This document shows positions 4,708-53,125 of a DNA stretch of 64,000 bases, piece by piece. This DNA is from Chloracidobacterium thermophilum B (GTDB taxonomy: Bacteria; Acidobacteriota; Blastocatellia; Chloracidobacteriales; Chloracidobacteriaceae). Position 1 is the first letter of the stretch; each line of letters opens with the position of its first letter. The DNA lies in contig NC_016024.1 in assembly GCF_000226295.1 (NCBI RefSeq), positions 975,501 to 1,039,500 of the forward strand, read 5' to 3'. Position numbers and translations under genes: made by a program. The notes beneath the pieces were generated by a model. The model did not search any database, was not told where the DNA came from, and saw only the letters and a list, made by a program, of their open reading frames with translations.

Positions 4708-5358
4708 ATGAAATCTTCTGAAAGCGACAGCGGAGCAGGACGCCCGATTGCCCGGCGTCCGACACGTTACCGTCTGGAAAAAAAGGTCAACGGTGTGTGT
4801 GTCCTGGAAGTCGTGGGACGCCTTGCCCCCAGTACGGCGCAGGAAGAACTGACCACGCGCGTGGATGACCTCATTGCCTCCGGCCACACCAACTTTCTCA
4901 TTGACCTGCGTGGCGTGAGCTACATCAGCAGCACCGGCGTTGGGGCACTCATCGAGTGCTATCACCATGCGGAACGCGCCGGTGGCAAGCTCAAACTGCT
5001 CAATCCATCGCAGGCTGTGCGGCAAATTCTCACCGTTTCCAAGCTGGACAGCGTGTTTGACATCTGGACGGACGAGGAAGCCGCCATCCGCAGCTTTGGA
5101 ACAACTGGCACTGAGACTGCGCACCCGGAGGAAGACGACCCGCCGACGCTTGTCCCTGAAGCTGTCAAACGTCCTTCTGCTGCCGCTTCCGCGCCGGCGA
5201 CGTCAGCCGCTTCTACCCCCAAGGCGTCTCCGGCAGCACCGGAGACGCCAGATGTCAAACCGGCACCGGCGGCTCCCCAACCACGGATTGTCAAGGCCGC
5301 TGATGCCCCGCCACTGAAGAAAAGCCGTTCACGGCGCGCCAAGCCTTCCTCTTCCTAG
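4708..5358 (+). CDS. STAS-domain protein (anti-sigma-factor-antagonist type) with Ala/Pro-rich tail
   Basis: 216 residues. Residues about 20-125 form a STAS domain: VLEVVGRLAPSTAQEEL, then FLIDLRGVSYISSTGVGALI, the SpoIIAA/RsbV phosphorylation loop in which a Ser before TGVG is the usual kinase target. The domain ends AAIRSF. The last 85 residues are Ala/Pro/Ser-rich low complexity ending in basic KKSRSRRAKPSSS, unusual for minimal antagonists, which are about 110 residues. Family members bind an anti-sigma/kinase partner and release it by partner switching. No SpoIIAB/RsbW-type kinase or SpoIIE-type phosphatase is adjacent, so the partner lies elsewhere. Confidence 0.88.
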   Translation: MKSSESDSGAGRPIARRPTRYRLEKKVNGVCVLEVVGRLAPSTAQEELTTRVDDLIASGHTNFLIDLRGVSYISSTGVGALIECYHHAERAGGKLKLLNPSQAVRQILTVSKLDSVFDIWTDEEAAIRSFGTTGTETAHPEEDDPPTLVPEAVKRPSAAASAPATSAASTPKASPAAPETPDVKPAPAAPQPRIVKAADAPPLKKSRSRRAKPSSS

Positions 5359-15549: not shown

Positions 15550-17421
15550 TCAGTCACGCGGACGACGTTTGTCCTTGTCGTCCTTGCCGCGCAGTATCTT
15601 CCAGACCTCCCAGAAACGGCGTTTTTCGCGCTTTTCCTCACGCCTTTCAGCTTGCCGCTCCTCAGCGCGTGGCGCGCGCGTACTTCCAGAGCTGGGTTCT
15701 GCGCGAGGTGTGGGCGGCGGCTCCGTGCGCGTGGTTTCCACAGGTGGTCGGGAAGGTGGGGGAGCGGGTGTTTCGGCGGGTGGTTGGGCTGGGCGCGCTA
15801 CAGGGGCGGGCAGGCTGCTGTTTTCGTCCGGCTTGCTACGCGGGGGACGGGCCGCTTCATCCCTGACTCTTTCGGCGGCTGGCGTTGGACGACGGGCAGG
15901 GGGGGATACCACTGGTGAAGCCGCTGGAGCTGTTTCCACGGGCGGGTCGGCAGGTACAGGTGATAGCGATGGTGGAGCCGTTGGAGCAATTCCCGCTGAT
16001 GGAGGGGTGGCAGGCGTGGTGGCTGGGGGTGGTTCAGTCGCAGCCGGTGGTGTGACAACGGGTTTTTCGAGGGGAGGTGTCACCGGGGCGGCAGAACGCA
16101 GCCAGCTTGTTGCCGCCAGCACCCCAAGAAGCAGCACCGCCGAAATACCGCCCACAATACCCAGCCGCTGAACTGCCCTGGAGCGCGATTCGGGGGCCTT
16201 GGCCGTGGTCACGGTCTGAACCGTGACCATCTCCGGCGCCGGTGTGGACGCCGCGCCAATGGCCAGCGTACCCGTGCCTGCTCTGGGTGTGGGAGGCGCA
16301 GCCGCCTGGCTCAGATGGGATGACAATGGGGCAGCTTGTTCGTTCGTGTCTGATGGCTTTCCGAAAACCGCTGTCCCTTCCATGGAGACTTGTGCAGCTC
16401 CAGCCGATTGGAGGCTGTTGTTTTGGAGAGTGGCTTCCCGGGAAGGACGGACCTCCTGCGCCGGGGCGATGTTGCCATCTGGTGCCTTGAATGGCGCTGG
16501 CGCCGGCAGGGACAGCGGAATGGTCGGGCTGGGCTTTGCACCGTAGGCTGCGACATACGCGGCTTCAAGCCGGTTCCACCATTCAGCCACTGAGGCCGGG
16601 CGGTCGGAAGGCTTTTTGGCCAGCGCCGCCAGGACAGCTTCTTCCAAAGCCGGGGGCAGATCGGGATTGACTTCACGCAGTGGCGTTGGCGGTTTCTGAA
16701 TCTGCGCCGTGAGAATGGCGGCAACCCGCCCCCGAAACGGTGGTTGCCCAACCAGCATCTCGTAGGCAATCACGGCCAGACTGTAGAGATCAGACCGCGC
16801 ATCCAGGTCCTCGCCGCTGCAATGTTCGGGTGACATGTAGGCCGGCGTGCCGACCAACTCGCCTGTGCGCGTGATGCTCGACGAGGTTTCAGCCTCTTCG
16901 AGCGTTTTGGCCAGCCCGAAGTCGAGAACCTTGACCGTGGTGCTGCCGTCATCCCGCCGCTTGAGCATGATGTTGTCCGGCTTGAGATCGCGGTGGATGA
17001 TGTTGCGGCGGTGGGCAAATTCAACGGCGGCACAGACTTCGCGCAGAATCGGGAGCGCCAGCGGGGGTGGCAGTACCCCCTGTTCCAGCAGGATATGGCG
17101 TAGTCCCTTGCCCTCGACAAACTCCAGAATCAGGTAAGCGCCGCCGTCAGGAAGCTTGCCGAAATCATAAACCGTGACGATGTTGGGGTGTTCGGTGGCA
17201 GCCGCCGTGCGTGCTTCCCGGAAGAAACGTTCGAGTGAGCCTTCAACCGTCAGAATTTCCGGGCGCAGGACTTTGACGGCTACGGTCCGCTCCAGGAGCA
17301 GATGGCGGCCGCGATACACTGCACCCATGCCACCCTGTCCCAGGATGGCTTCCAGCCGAACCTTGTTGTCAATGATGCTCCCTACCAGGGATGACTCGGA
17401 CGCCGTATCGGGCTGGGGCAT
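15550..17421 (-). CDS. Membrane Ser/Thr protein kinase with Pro-rich outer tail
   Basis: 623 residues. Kinase domain about 17-290: ILGQGGMGAVYRG loop, Lys50 in VAVKVL, HRDLKPDN with Asp145, DFG at 167-169 and YMSPEH in place of APE. All catalytic residues are present, so it should phosphorylate Ser/Thr. A 130-residue linker leads to one transmembrane helix at about 421-441, followed by a 180-residue Pro/Ala/Thr-rich segment ending in a very basic tail. There is no recognisable ligand domain such as PASTA in the outer part. It lies 37 bases after cobT on the same strand. Confidence 0.93.
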   Translation of the reverse strand: MPQPDTASESSLVGSIIDNKVRLEAILGQGGMGAVYRGRHLLLERTVAVKVLRPEILTVEGSLERFFREARTAAATEHPNIVTVYDFGKLPDGGAYLILEFVEGKGLRHILLEQGVLPPPLALPILREVCAAVEFAHRRNIIHRDLKPDNIMLKRRDDGSTTVKVLDFGLAKTLEEAETSSSITRTGELVGTPAYMSPEHCSGEDLDARSDLYSLAVIAYEMLVGQPPFRGRVAAILTAQIQKPPTPLREVNPDLPPALEEAVLAALAKKPSDRPASVAEWWNRLEAAYVAAYGAKPSPTIPLSLPAPAPFKAPDGNIAPAQEVRPSREATLQNNSLQSAGAAQVSMEGTAVFGKPSDTNEQAAPLSSHLSQAAAPPTPRAGTGTLAIGAASTPAPEMVTVQTVTTAKAPESRSRAVQRLGIVGGISAVLLLGVLAATSWLRSAAPVTPPLEKPVVTPPAATEPPPATTPATPPSAGIAPTAPPSLSPVPADPPVETAPAASPVVSPPARRPTPAAERVRDEAARPPRSKPDENSSLPAPVARPAQPPAETPAPPPSRPPVETTRTEPPPTPRAEPSSGSTRAPRAEERQAERREEKREKRRFWEVWKILRGKDDKDKRRPRD

Positions 17422-46584: not shown

Positions 46585-46598
46585 GTGTGAAATCACAC
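46585..46598. promoter_or_regulatory. Inverted repeat GTGTGA-AA-TCACAC before the tolC promoter
   Basis: Perfect six-base arms with a two-base spacer, ending at the base before the TTGACG box. The arms resemble a Crp half site, but the spacer is two, not six, so it is not a normal Crp/Fnr site. Confidence 0.55.
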
Positions 46599-46627
46599 TT
46601 GACGTTTCAGTCGGTGGGGCGTAAGAC
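46599..46627 (+). promoter_or_regulatory. Promoter of the TolC-MFS-TetR operon
   Basis: TTGACG (46599-46604), 17 bases, then TAAGAC (46622-46627). The -35 is close to consensus, the -10 is a weaker match. The start point would fall about 46634, inside the palindromes. Confidence 0.5.
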
Positions 46628-46630
46628 TTG

Positions 46631-46644
46631 CATTCAAACGAATG
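46631..46644. promoter_or_regulatory. Inverted repeat CATTC-AAAC-GAATG
   Basis: Perfect five-base arms around AAAC, at the expected transcription start. It sits next to the larger palindrome at 46645 and may be a second operator half. Confidence 0.5.
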
Positions 46645-46664
46645 TTTCAATCAAGTGATTGAAA
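46645..46664. promoter_or_regulatory. Palindromic operator-like site TTTCAATCA-AG-TGATTGAAA
   Basis: A perfect nine-base inverted repeat with a two-base centre, ending 10 bases before the tolC ATG. Size and layout fit the operator of a TetR-family dimer. A TetR-family gene is the third gene of this operon, so autoregulation is the simplest reading. Confidence 0.65.
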
Positions 46665-46674
46665 TGGTGAACTT

Positions 46675-48552
46675 ATGAACATTCCTCGTTACTGCACATG
46701 GGTCGGGCTGGCATTCATTCTGGCAGCTCTGATGACATCCCTGGTACGCGCCCAGGACGAGTTTCCGGTTTCCAGTCCTGCTTCCGACGAACCGGGCCGC
46801 CCGGCCATCGCTGGGATTGTGCGGACGGCAGCCCAGACGCCGACAGCCTCCACAACGACTTCCGATCAGGACCTCATCGAGCAGGCACGTCGCCAGATCG
46901 CCATCGAGCCACGGGTGGGGGTTGTGCCGGGGTTGAGCCGCCCGCTGGCGCTGCGCGAGGCCATTCTTATGGCGTTGCGGGCCAATCCAGACGTGGAAAT
47001 TCAGCGGATTGCCGTACAGCAGGCGGCATTTGATGTCAACCGCACCAAGGGGTTTTACGACGTGGTGCTGACAAACCAGTTTGCCTACTCGGCGCTCCGC
47101 AATCCGGCCGTCAATCCCTTTGCCGGAGCCGATGAAAACGGAGCCGTCGAGATTCGCGCGGCACAAAACACCTTTGCCTTCACCAAGCCGCTGATGACCG
47201 GCGGGCGCGTCGGGGCCGAGTTCACCGTGGCGCGGCAGGACACAACCAACATCTTTGCCGGGGTCAATCCGCTGTTCAGTTCCCAGTTGACCTTCACCTT
47301 CACGCAGCCGCTGTTTCGCAACTTTCGGACGGATGAATCCCGCCGCCAGATTGAACTGGCCAAAAAGCGTCTGACGCTGTCGGATTCGCAGTTCCGGCAG
47401 CGCGTCATAGACATCGTGGCGCAGGTGCAGTCGGCGTACTGGGATTTGGTCTTTGCCCGCCGCGAAGTCGAAATCCGCGCCGAAGCTGTGGCGCTGGCAC
47501 GCATCCAGCTTGAACAGAACCGGCGCTTCGTCGAGGCCGGTACGGCGGCTCCAGTGGAGATCGTATCGGTCGAAGCCCAGCTCGAACAGCGCCAGGAAGA
47601 GTTCCTGCTGGCGCTGGAAAATCTGACGCGCGTGGAAAATGCCCTCAAGTCCCTCATCCTGGACCAGCGCCAGGCGCCCCTGTGGCAGGAAGCCATTGTG
47701 CCCACTGAACAGGTCAACCTCGAACCGGTCAACATTTCGCTTGATGAAGCCGTGCGAGCCGCGCTCGCCAGGCGGCCGGAAATGGAGCAGTTCGACATTC
47801 AGAAGACGGCCAACGAGATTGACATCCGGTTTTTCCGCGACCAGCTCCGTCCGCAGTTGGATTTCGTCGGTTCCTACAGCTTGCAGGGGCTGGCCGGGAC
47901 GCCGCTCCCCATCACGACCAATCCTTTTGCCGGTGGTTTCAATACGGCCGTGCTGGAAAGGTTGAACCTCCTTTCGGCACAGGCTGGACTGGGGCCGGTC
48001 GTGATTCCGCCGCCGACCAACCAGACACCGGGCGTGTTCATCGGCGGGTTTGGGCGCAATCTCAGCAATCTGTTCACCAAGAACTTTTATGGCGTGCGGG
48101 TTGGCGTCAACCTGAGCTTCACGCTCAACAACCGTACGACCCAGGGCGCACTCGGCCGGGCGTTGGCTCAGGACCGGCTCATTGCCGCCCAGCGCCAGCG
48201 TTTTGAAACCCAGGTGGAAACGGAAGTGCGTAACGCGCTTCAGTCCGTGCAGACGGCGTTGCGGCGGGTGCAGGCGGCGCGGGCCTCACGGGTGGCAGCC
48301 GAGGCGCAGTACGCCAGCGAAATGCGCCGCTATCAGGTGGGTGAGTCCACGAACTTCCTCGTGCTTGACCGGCAAAATGCCCTGTCTGCGGCGCGGGGAC
48401 GGGAAGTGCGCGCCCTGACGGACTACAACAAGGCGGTCGTAGCCCTTCAGCGGGCGATGTCCACCACGCTGGATGCCAACAGTCTGACGGTCAAGCCGGC
48501 GGATGGGTCACGTCCGGCGGATGTACATCCCGATGTCGAGCCAACACCCTGA
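46675..48552 (+). CDS. TolC-like outer-membrane efflux protein
   Basis: 625 residues. A signal peptide (MNIPRYCTWVGLAFILAALM to about VRAQ) is followed by a disordered stretch and two outer-membrane-factor repeats: LALREAILMALRANPDVEI, long helices (VEIRAEAVALARIQLEQNRR), and NLSFTLNNRTTQGALGRALA with ALQSVQTALRRVQAAR. It is a trimeric channel that completes export across the outer membrane, working with an inner-membrane pump. The MFS gene follows by 10 bases. No membrane-fusion protein gene is present here. Confidence 0.93.
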   Translation: MNIPRYCTWVGLAFILAALMTSLVRAQDEFPVSSPASDEPGRPAIAGIVRTAAQTPTASTTTSDQDLIEQARRQIAIEPRVGVVPGLSRPLALREAILMALRANPDVEIQRIAVQQAAFDVNRTKGFYDVVLTNQFAYSALRNPAVNPFAGADENGAVEIRAAQNTFAFTKPLMTGGRVGAEFTVARQDTTNIFAGVNPLFSSQLTFTFTQPLFRNFRTDESRRQIELAKKRLTLSDSQFRQRVIDIVAQVQSAYWDLVFARREVEIRAEAVALARIQLEQNRRFVEAGTAAPVEIVSVEAQLEQRQEEFLLALENLTRVENALKSLILDQRQAPLWQEAIVPTEQVNLEPVNISLDEAVRAALARRPEMEQFDIQKTANEIDIRFFRDQLRPQLDFVGSYSLQGLAGTPLPITTNPFAGGFNTAVLERLNLLSAQAGLGPVVIPPPTNQTPGVFIGGFGRNLSNLFTKNFYGVRVGVNLSFTLNNRTTQGALGRALAQDRLIAAQRQRFETQVETEVRNALQSVQTALRRVQAARASRVAAEAQYASEMRRYQVGESTNFLVLDRQNALSAARGREVRALTDYNKAVVALQRAMSTTLDANSLTVKPADGSRPADVHPDVEPTP

Positions 48553-48562
48553 GCCACTTCCA

Positions 48563-49876
48563 ATGAACACCATGCGTGGTTGGCTTCAGCGCCCGTTTCT
48601 GCGCCAGTGGGCGGCCGACTGGTCGCCGCTGCGGAGACGTGCCTTCCGTCTCTACTTTGGTGGACAGGCGGTGTCGTTGCTCGGCACCTGGATGCAGATC
48701 ACGGCACAGTCGTGGGTGGTATGGGAACTAAGTCACTCGATGCAGTCCCAAGGCGTTGTGGCGCTGCTCGGTTCCTTGCCGCTGATATTGTTGGCGCCGT
48801 GGGCCGGCGCAGCGGCTGACCGTTTCGACCGCCGGAAACTGCTCATTCTGGCGCAGGTGGCCGCGATGCTGCTGGCCTTTGCGCTCGCCCTGCTGGTGCA
48901 AACGGGGTGGATTCGGCTCTGGCACGTCTATGGACTGTCGTTTCTGCTTGGCGTCGTCGCGGCGGTTGAAATGCCGGCCCAACAGGCTTTCATCGGCGAT
49001 CTGGTCGGGATGTCCGAAGTTCGCAAGGCGTTGGCGCTCAACGGCATTATCGTCCAGCTTGGACGGACGGTGGGACCAACGCTTGCCGGCTGGGCGATTG
49101 CCCACATCGGCGTGGCCGAAGCCTTCTGGGTCAATGGGGTGAGTTTTCTCGCGGTTATTGCCAGCCTGCTGGCCATCCGCAGCGTCACCACGGAGCGGGC
49201 TTCCCAGACCGGCATCAGTCGGGGTGGCTTTGGTGAGGCCGTCCGGTATCTGCGCTCCCAACCGCGCCTGCTCGACCTGCTGGCCTTCACCATGCTGGCC
49301 GCCTTTTTCGTCCTGTCGAACCTGACGATTTACCCTGCGCTGGCCACAGTTGTTCTCCGTGGGGATTCCCGCACCTTGGGCTGGCTGCTGGGGGCTTCGG
49401 GGGTAGGGGCGCTCATCGGTTCAGTACTGGTGACGCACCTGAGCCGGGCCATTCCACGGGTGGGGGCGGCGCTGGTTGGGTGTACGGTGTGGGCCGGCGT
49501 CATGGTGGTGTGCAATTCCTGGAGTCGTACGCTCCCGGCGGCGGTTTCGTGTATTGTGGCGACAGGGCTGGCCGTTCCCTTCATTTTCACGACGGCCAAC
49601 GGATTGACGCAGATGCTCGCTCCAGTGCAGATGCGCGGGCGGCTGTTGAGCATCCTGCTGATGGCCGGCTTCGGTCTGCAACCGGTTGTAGCCATTGGCA
49701 TTGGTTGGATTGGCGACCGGTTTGGCCCGTCACAGGCTCTGCTCATCAACGGTCTGTGCCTGATTGGCGGCGGACTGCTGATGATGGGGCGTCCCGGACT
49801 TCTGGGTTGGCAGGTTGGCGTGGCGACGACGGGGGAATCTACACCGCCGGGCGTGGCACCGGCTCAACCGGCATAA
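48563..49876 (+). CDS. MFS exporter, EntS/MFS_3-like
   Basis: 437 residues with about 12 helices. AFRLYFGGQAVSLLGTWMQITAQSW, LLAPWAGAAADRFDRRKLLI (the MFS loop 2-3 motif), IGDLVGMSEVRKALALNGII and GRTVGPTLAGW are typical of the EntS/MFS_3 group, which exports siderophores and drugs. It follows the tolC-like gene by 10 bases, and the TetR-type gene lies 97 bases after its stop. An earlier in-frame start overlaps tolC and adds a hydrophilic stretch; ATG 48563 was chosen, though the binding site is weak. Substrate unknown. Confidence 0.9.
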   Translation: MNTMRGWLQRPFLRQWAADWSPLRRRAFRLYFGGQAVSLLGTWMQITAQSWVVWELSHSMQSQGVVALLGSLPLILLAPWAGAAADRFDRRKLLILAQVAAMLLAFALALLVQTGWIRLWHVYGLSFLLGVVAAVEMPAQQAFIGDLVGMSEVRKALALNGIIVQLGRTVGPTLAGWAIAHIGVAEAFWVNGVSFLAVIASLLAIRSVTTERASQTGISRGGFGEAVRYLRSQPRLLDLLAFTMLAAFFVLSNLTIYPALATVVLRGDSRTLGWLLGASGVGALIGSVLVTHLSRAIPRVGAALVGCTVWAGVMVVCNSWSRTLPAAVSCIVATGLAVPFIFTTANGLTQMLAPVQMRGRLLSILLMAGFGLQPVVAIGIGWIGDRFGPSQALLINGLCLIGGGLLMMGRPGLLGWQVGVATTGESTPPGVAPAQPA

Positions 49877-49973
49877 ATACCCTGACTGGTGTCAGCCTTG
49901 GGGTCAGGTGCCTGAGACAGGCTGACCCGGAAACCCGATTTTGAAGCGCAAGCACAACGCAGGAATGAAACCT

Positions 49974-50795
49974 ATGGCTCAAGCCAATGCTGGTCATCAG
50001 GCGGCGGCTCCGGCAGGTGAATCCAAGCTGCCAAAACGCAAGGCAAAACGCGCGGCTGAGGGCGAAACAGCCGATGCCAAGACCCGCCTGCTGGTGGTGG
50101 CGGAGCGGATGTTCGCTGAGCGGGGCTTTGCCTGTACGAGCGTCCGCGATCTGGCCGCCGAAGCCGGCGTCAACATTGCGGCTGTCAACTATCACTTCCG
50201 CAGCAAGGAAGAGCTGTACCTGGAAACCCTGCGTTATGCGATGCGGCGCTCAAAGGACATCACTCCGCGTTTTGCGCGCATTCTGCGGCAGGCCCAGCAG
50301 GTGGGCACGCCAGAGGCCGCACAGCAGGGCATTGTGCACTTCATCGAGACCTTCATCAGCCATCTCTATGGTCAACCGGCCGGAACAGACTACTCGGCAG
50401 CGTTGATGTCGCACGAGATGCTCCATCCGACCGGCGCCCTTGACATCGTGGTGCAGGAATTCATCCAGCCCCGCTTCGAGATTCTCATGGCGCTGATCCG
50501 GCTGGCGCGCCCCGATCTCAAGCCGGACCTCGATGTAGCTTTCCATGCCTTCAGCATCGTTGGGCAGTGCCTGCACATGCACTTCTGCCGTCCCATCGTT
50601 CTGCAACTGACGGGAGAAGGGAAGCTGACGGCGCGTTTCCTGCGTCGCATGGCGCGTCACATTGCCGGATTTTCCATCAGGGGGCTGGCGGTGGCGGCGC
50701 CGCGGCCGGTGGAGACGCGGCTGGCGGGGACTCCGGGCGCAGGTGGGGAAACAGAATCACATCCCGAATCGAACGCTGATTCGTCAGCAGCATAA
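49974..50795 (+). CDS. TetR/AcrR-family regulator with CecR-type C-terminal domain
   Basis: 273 residues. After a basic disordered front, [40 protein letters not shown] and [13 protein letters not shown] form the TetR helix-turn-helix. The C-terminal domain ([37 protein letters not shown]) fits the CecR/DUF1956 type, which senses small molecules and controls export. ATG 49974 is preferred over ATG 49965 since AGGA lies nine bases before it. It is the third gene of the operon and the likely repressor of the operator at 46645. Its 3' end overlaps lysS by 119 bases. Confidence 0.9.
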
Positions 50796-53094: not shown

Positions 53095-53125
53095 GAAAAA
53101 AGGCGATGGGGAATACCCATCGCCT
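53095..53125 (-). terminator. Strong terminator of the TonB receptor gene
   Basis: On the minus strand a perfect ten-base stem (AGGCGATGGG with CCCATCGCCT) around a five-base loop is followed by TTTTTT. It begins 28 bases after the receptor stop at 53153. Confidence 0.9.

Follow-up and report, generated by a model that had tools for sequence, protein, structure and literature searches.

Results

Organization of the tolC-mfs-tetR locus

The window, that is, the whole 64,000-nucleotide stretch of the Chloracidobacterium thermophilum B genome (3,695,372 bases in two contigs) analysed here, carries an efflux operon on its forward strand. The first gene encodes a tolC-type outer-membrane efflux protein (46675..48552; PF02321, 7.2e-37) and is preceded by a probable ribosome-binding site, GGTGA (46666..46670, same strand), that is conserved in six of the seven genus genomes. 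It is followed by a gene for an MFS_3 exporter (48503..49876; PF05977, 2.1e-53), which in this reading overlaps the end of tolC, and by a gene for a TetR/CecR-type regulator (49941..50795; PF00440, 7.2e-16; PF09209 CecR_C, 3.7e-22) whose start codon is uncertain. On the 5′ side the opposite strand has one gene each for NfeD and Band 7 proteins, and the order nfeD / tolC-mfs-tetR / lysS is found in all seven genus genomes, the window included. The regulator gene and the convergent lysS gene overlap at their 3′ ends by ~119 bp in this reading (50677-50795), and the two genes likewise lie end to end in other genomes of the genus.

The regulator scores 58.1 bits against TetR_N and 79.1 bits against CecR_C (PF09209), both above the cut-offs of 24. 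Against the NCBIfam equivalog models for CecR and for PsrA (Vibrio) it reaches 67.7 bits (cut-off 365) and 61.1 bits (cut-off 300) respectively, below both cut-offs. As far as its sequence tells, the protein would work like CecR or PsrA, and we claim identity with neither.

Inverted repeats and promoter upstream of tolC

Three perfect inverted repeats lie upstream of tolC, where the initial annotation had placed them; both the sequence itself and a repeat finder confirm them. The first, GTGTGA-AA-TCACAC (46585-46598, no strand assigned), immediately precedes a predicted -35 box, TTGACG (46599..46604, forward strand), that is present in all seven genus genomes. The second, CATTC-AAAC-GAATG (46631-46644, likewise strandless), and the third, the 9-bp-arm palindrome TTTCAATCA-AG-TGATTGAAA (46645-46664), lie beyond a predicted -10 box, TAAGAC (46622..46627, forward strand; TARRAN in the genus), which was placed from the genus alignment and is separated from the -35 box by a 17-bp spacer. 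The -10 box is weak and was not reported by a consensus promoter scanner. As a promoter the pair is nevertheless plausible, and it is conserved in the genus; its start point is a prediction.

Inverted repeats with perfect arms of at least 9 bp and gaps of at most 8 occur four times in the 64-kb window, the 9-bp palindrome included. The other three, at 5223-5249, 16206-16229 and 53101-53125, have arms of 10-11 bp and are GC-richer. With gaps of at most 4, the window background is 0.44 per 80 bp for arms of at least 5 bp and 0.12 per 80 bp for arms of at least 6 bp, so that the two smaller palindromes are individually unremarkable. Of the three palindromes only the 9-bp one is unusual; the other two need no explanation.

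Comparison within the genus leads the same two palindromes to be set aside. GTGTGA-AA-TCACAC is perfect in one genome of seven, the others keeping 5, 4, 4, 3, 3 and 2 of the 6 arm pairs, and CATTC-AAAC-GAATG is also perfect in one of seven, with 3, 3, 2, 2, 1 and 1 of 5 pairs elsewhere. Since neither is conserved, the reading as three independent operators was rejected, and the suggestion that these two repeats point to a second regulator finds no support. A CRP-like reading of GTGTGA-AA-TCACAC was dropped on spacing, which is 2 here and 6 in a CRP site.

A predicted composite 31-bp operator conserved in the genus

The alignment of the seven genus promoters keeps TTGACG, the -10 region and TTCAAAC-RARY-GTTTCAATC-RARY-GMTTGAA. 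Within it two 18-bp boxes of the form TTnAAnC-N4-GnTTnAA can be recognized: box 1, TTCAAACGAATGTTTCAA (46633..46650), conserved in all seven genomes, and box 2, TTCAATCAAGTGATTGAA (46646..46663), kept in six of them. Their centers are 13 bp apart and TTCAA is common to both. Together they make up a 31-bp element, TTNAANCNNNNGNTTNAANCNNNNGNTTNAA (46633..46663; like the boxes, without strand), which is found at the tolC promoter in 7/7 genus genomes with at most one mismatch, while the reversed pattern used as a control gave zero or close to zero matches. The boxes follow the conserved TTGACG/TARRAN promoter, downstream of its predicted -10 box and ahead of the tolC gene. Two genomes depart from the pattern: G002 has a worn right arm in box 2, and G005 a different first letter in box 1. 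An exact direct-repeat finder reports no repeat at the operator because the two boxes differ in letters.

At the place of the CATTC and GAATG arms the genus keeps TTCAAAC-N4-GTTTCAA, which by its form is another box to be read by a regulator of this kind. CATTC-AAAC-GAATG, which overlaps box 1 and has another center, is probably an accident. On this alignment, the conserved element of the genus is one predicted 31-bp operator rather than three palindromes.

The same boxes at homologous regulators elsewhere

In sister genera and families a homologous regulator (42-50% identity) lies in another operon, without tolC-mfs beside it, and here the boxes are directly upstream of the regulator gene itself. 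Six such loci (L039, L040, L041, L043, L044 and L046) have two or three boxes that follow one another every 13 bp, some of them weaker, with three in L043; L042 has one box.

We then consider a wider set made up of the best 80 of 557 candidate loci, whose regulators have 28-41% identity and most of which are metagenome-assembled; it covers Planctomycetes, Verrucomicrobia, Deltaproteobacteria, Acidobacteria, Nitrospira and others. One locus (L123) has too little upstream DNA, leaving 79 that are testable. With a scan matrix trained on 26 boxes from acidobacterial loci only, the window included, 74 of these 79 loci gave a box in the 300 bp ahead of the regulator gene, compared with an expectation of 3.27 from dinucleotide-shuffled sequence. 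Under a lenient chain rule, which accepts 8 of 10 letters and gives neighbouring boxes four matched letters free, the spacing of box pairs in the 74 loci is 13 bp in 81 cases, 26 bp in 21 and 39 bp in three, with at most four pairs at any other spacing up to 60 bp; two or more boxes form a chain in 63/74 loci and a second box is lacking in 11. When only the unshared 13 bp are scored, a 13-bp chain is present in 44/74 loci and 30 are without a second box; this strict rule places a second box at 26 bp in ten loci and at any one of the other spacings from 14 to 52 in at most three. Chains are two to four boxes long. Among the Nitrospira loci, none of the four with a box has a phased neighbour.

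Over the whole 64 kb, a matrix built from the loci of other phyla gives its highest score to box 1 of the window and its second highest to box 2, a test that is not fully independent given that the boxes behind that matrix had been picked with the acidobacterial one. Over an 8-kb stretch of Escherichia coli K-12 the top match of the same other-phyla matrix lies directly upstream of cecR, and no clear 13-bp chain is seen at that promoter. The boxes track the regulator family across loci and phyla, mostly beside efflux genes. Four loci with more distant regulators (L047-L050; about 24-29% identity and another recognition helix) were excluded from the alignment and the matrix. AT-rich palindromes with AATCAA lie upstream of the tetR genes of three of them (L047, L048 and L049), perhaps a related operator of another subfamily.

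An unlinked ABC exporter and tolC orthologs carry the box

Exact boxes occur three times in the source genome: two are those at tolC, and the third lies 55 bp ahead of an ftsX-abc-hlyD operon ~110 kb from the tolC operon, where it is the single strong box (L153, 3938-3955). The orthologous ftsX is preceded by this box in all seven genomes of the genus. A second, less strong box lies in phase with it, 13 bp further upstream, and is weak in six of the seven. Among the ORFs listed around ftsX-abc-hlyD in L153, no tolC-like gene was recognized. In five sister genomes (G007, G009, G011, G012 and G013) ftsX (68-71% identity) directly follows the regulator gene, and in G008 the regulator gene is followed by ftsX-abc-hlyD (69-85% identity), with a contig end hiding the DNA upstream of the regulator. 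L042 has the regulator and none of the ftsX-abc-hlyD genes within the stretch examined.

Two tolC orthologs that are not linked to the CecR-type regulator of their genomes (G007:C74 and G009:C173; 57-58% identity) have three phased boxes upstream, at L154 7391-7434 and L155 7453-7496; these tolC genes follow an RND pump gene. Other tolC-like genes (L180-L190, at most 46% identity) have no phased boxes upstream. For the genes downstream of the regulators, 65 of the 80 loci qualified and 60 were scanned, L056, L084, L115, L119 and L123 having been left out by hand; these 60 gave FtsX 20 times, MacB_PCD 20 times, OEP 17 times and HlyD_3 14 times. Taken together, the box positions support one small regulon joining an outer-membrane channel, pumps and their own regulator.

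Exact boxes in G004:C2, G005:C2 and G006:C5 were rejected as regulon members, as they lie inside coding sequence. The exact boxes at L191 2853-2870 and L192 3085-3102 are at the 3′ end of orthologous coding sequence and are likely produced by the coded peptide, which calls for caution in counting boxes.

Discussion

A model for regulation of the efflux genes

The conservation of the element in the genus, the boxes at homologous regulators and the likeness to PsrA sites agree with the proposal of the initial annotation that the last palindrome belongs to a TetR-family operator, and point to the TetR gene of the operon as the best candidate for its binder. We consider it probable, with good confidence, that a CecR-type autorepressor controls TolC, the MFS pump and the ABC exporter by the cooperative binding of at least two dimers. 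The feature expected of a TetR-family autorepressor, an operator over the promoter of the regulator's own operon, is seen here by position only.

From these sequence arrangements we infer the following scheme. The CecR_C-type regulator, the product of the last gene of the operon, would bind 46633-46663, where two dimers would occupy the overlapping boxes, with their centers 13 bp apart and one TTCAA in common. The simultaneous presence of two dimers on one operator is suggested by the 13-bp phasing only, and they would bind cooperatively. Bound dimers would cover the predicted start region of tolC-mfs-tetR and block its transcription, which would place the operon under the control of its own product. 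Release from the DNA would be brought about by an effector, possibly a fatty acid or another amphipathic efflux substrate; this ligand is a guess drawn from the fatty acids of PsrA and from the efflux genes. The same regulator would act in trans on the unlinked ftsX-abc-hlyD operon, so that channel, MFS pump and ABC exporter would be made together and TolC might serve the ABC exporter as well.

It is possible, and in our judgement improbable, that one dimer only binds, on the 9-bp palindrome of box 2, with box 1 weak or irrelevant. Box 2 is indeed the better palindrome in the window (8/9 pairs, compared with 6/9 for box 1), and several loci elsewhere have one box. However, within the genus box 1 is conserved at least as well as box 2, which is the one that is worn in G002, and chains with an exact 13-bp step recur far above chance. 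The main binder could also be a TetR-family protein of the cell other than the operon's own, given that two weaker TetR-family matches occur elsewhere in the genome and that regulation in trans is possible; but across loci and phyla the box goes with this regulator family, and it stands upstream of the regulator gene itself when the order of the operon differs, which makes such a binder very unlikely. For a second regulator acting in this species only, on GTGTGA-AA-TCACAC, one can point to the perfect 6-bp arms adjoining the -35 box and to the nearest relative, which has five of the six pairs. A regulator of this kind is highly improbable all the same: five other genus genomes have only two to four pairs, arms of this size occur 0.12 times per 80 bp, and the palindrome is probably no operator. 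A role for the 9-bp inverted repeat as a hairpin of the 5′ leader RNA is scarcely credible, and was rejected on a fold z-score of only -0.91: the repeat does fold as a hairpin there, but arm changes in G003, G006 and G002 are uncompensated and the boxes elsewhere form chains at 13-bp steps, not one hairpin.

The preferred reading of cooperating dimers can be extended to a general proposal, for which we judge the chances evenly balanced: that CecR/PsrA-like efflux regulators of several phyla use an extendable operator with TTNAA every 13 bp, each TTNAA being common to two neighbouring dimers, and that the number of boxes in the cooperating chain, from two to four, sets the strength of repression. 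If dimers do chain in this way, the number of boxes would give promoters a simple natural way of tuning repression. For a widespread and little studied group of efflux regulators, one that reaches Acidobacteria, Planctomycetes, Verrucomicrobia and others, the pattern amounts to an operator rule that can be tested, and the operator sequence in common ties the channel in the outer membrane to an ABC exporter encoded elsewhere in the genome. The case also illustrates how genome comparison tells a real operator from accidental palindromes.

Comparison with known systems

The operator boxes resemble the binding site of PsrA, published as C/GAAAC-N2-4-GTTTG/C, with TTCAAAC-N4-GTTTGAA in Pseudomonas putida (PMC13104628). 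Box 1 (CAAAC-GAAT-GTTTC) fits this published pattern, and box 2 (CAATC-AAGT-GATTG) is off it by one position per arm. Smlt2053, a PsrA relative of Stenotrophomonas, is described as having two such repeats at its own promoter and forming two complexes (PMC10304680). A box of the TTCAAAC-N4-GTTTGAA type and autorepression, here a prediction, are common to PsrA, Smlt2053 and the present system. The targets differ, being fatty-acid degradation or rpoS for PsrA and Smlt2053 and export genes here, and the 13-bp step seen here goes unmentioned for the other two in the passages compared.

CecR (YbiH) of E. coli resembles the present regulator in combining TetR_N with CecR_C. It is listed as the regulator of its own ybh operon and of rhlE (PMC8249747). 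The cecR operon also contains an HlyD/ABC exporter, listed as a CecR target, whereas the operon here holds another transporter set. The unlinked operon has a likeness to the DevBCA-TolC exporters, in that it encodes a permease of the FtsX/MacB type together with an ATPase and an HlyD adaptor; its proteins match the DevA, DevB and DevC models with 236.6, 71 and 47.9 bits against curated cut-offs of 295.8, 129 and 290.35, and because all three scores fall below these the operon can be called DevBCA-like only.

Two dimers on one operator are a known arrangement among TetR-family proteins, QacR being an example. DarR, another member, is reported to place two dimers on overlapping palindromes of one operator (PMC10636190). 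The literature compared, mainly titles, abstract openings and open-access passages, names no operator with a 13-bp step for this family. DarR uses one 20-bp operator, whereas the boxes described here form open-ended chains of two to four with a fixed 13-bp step.
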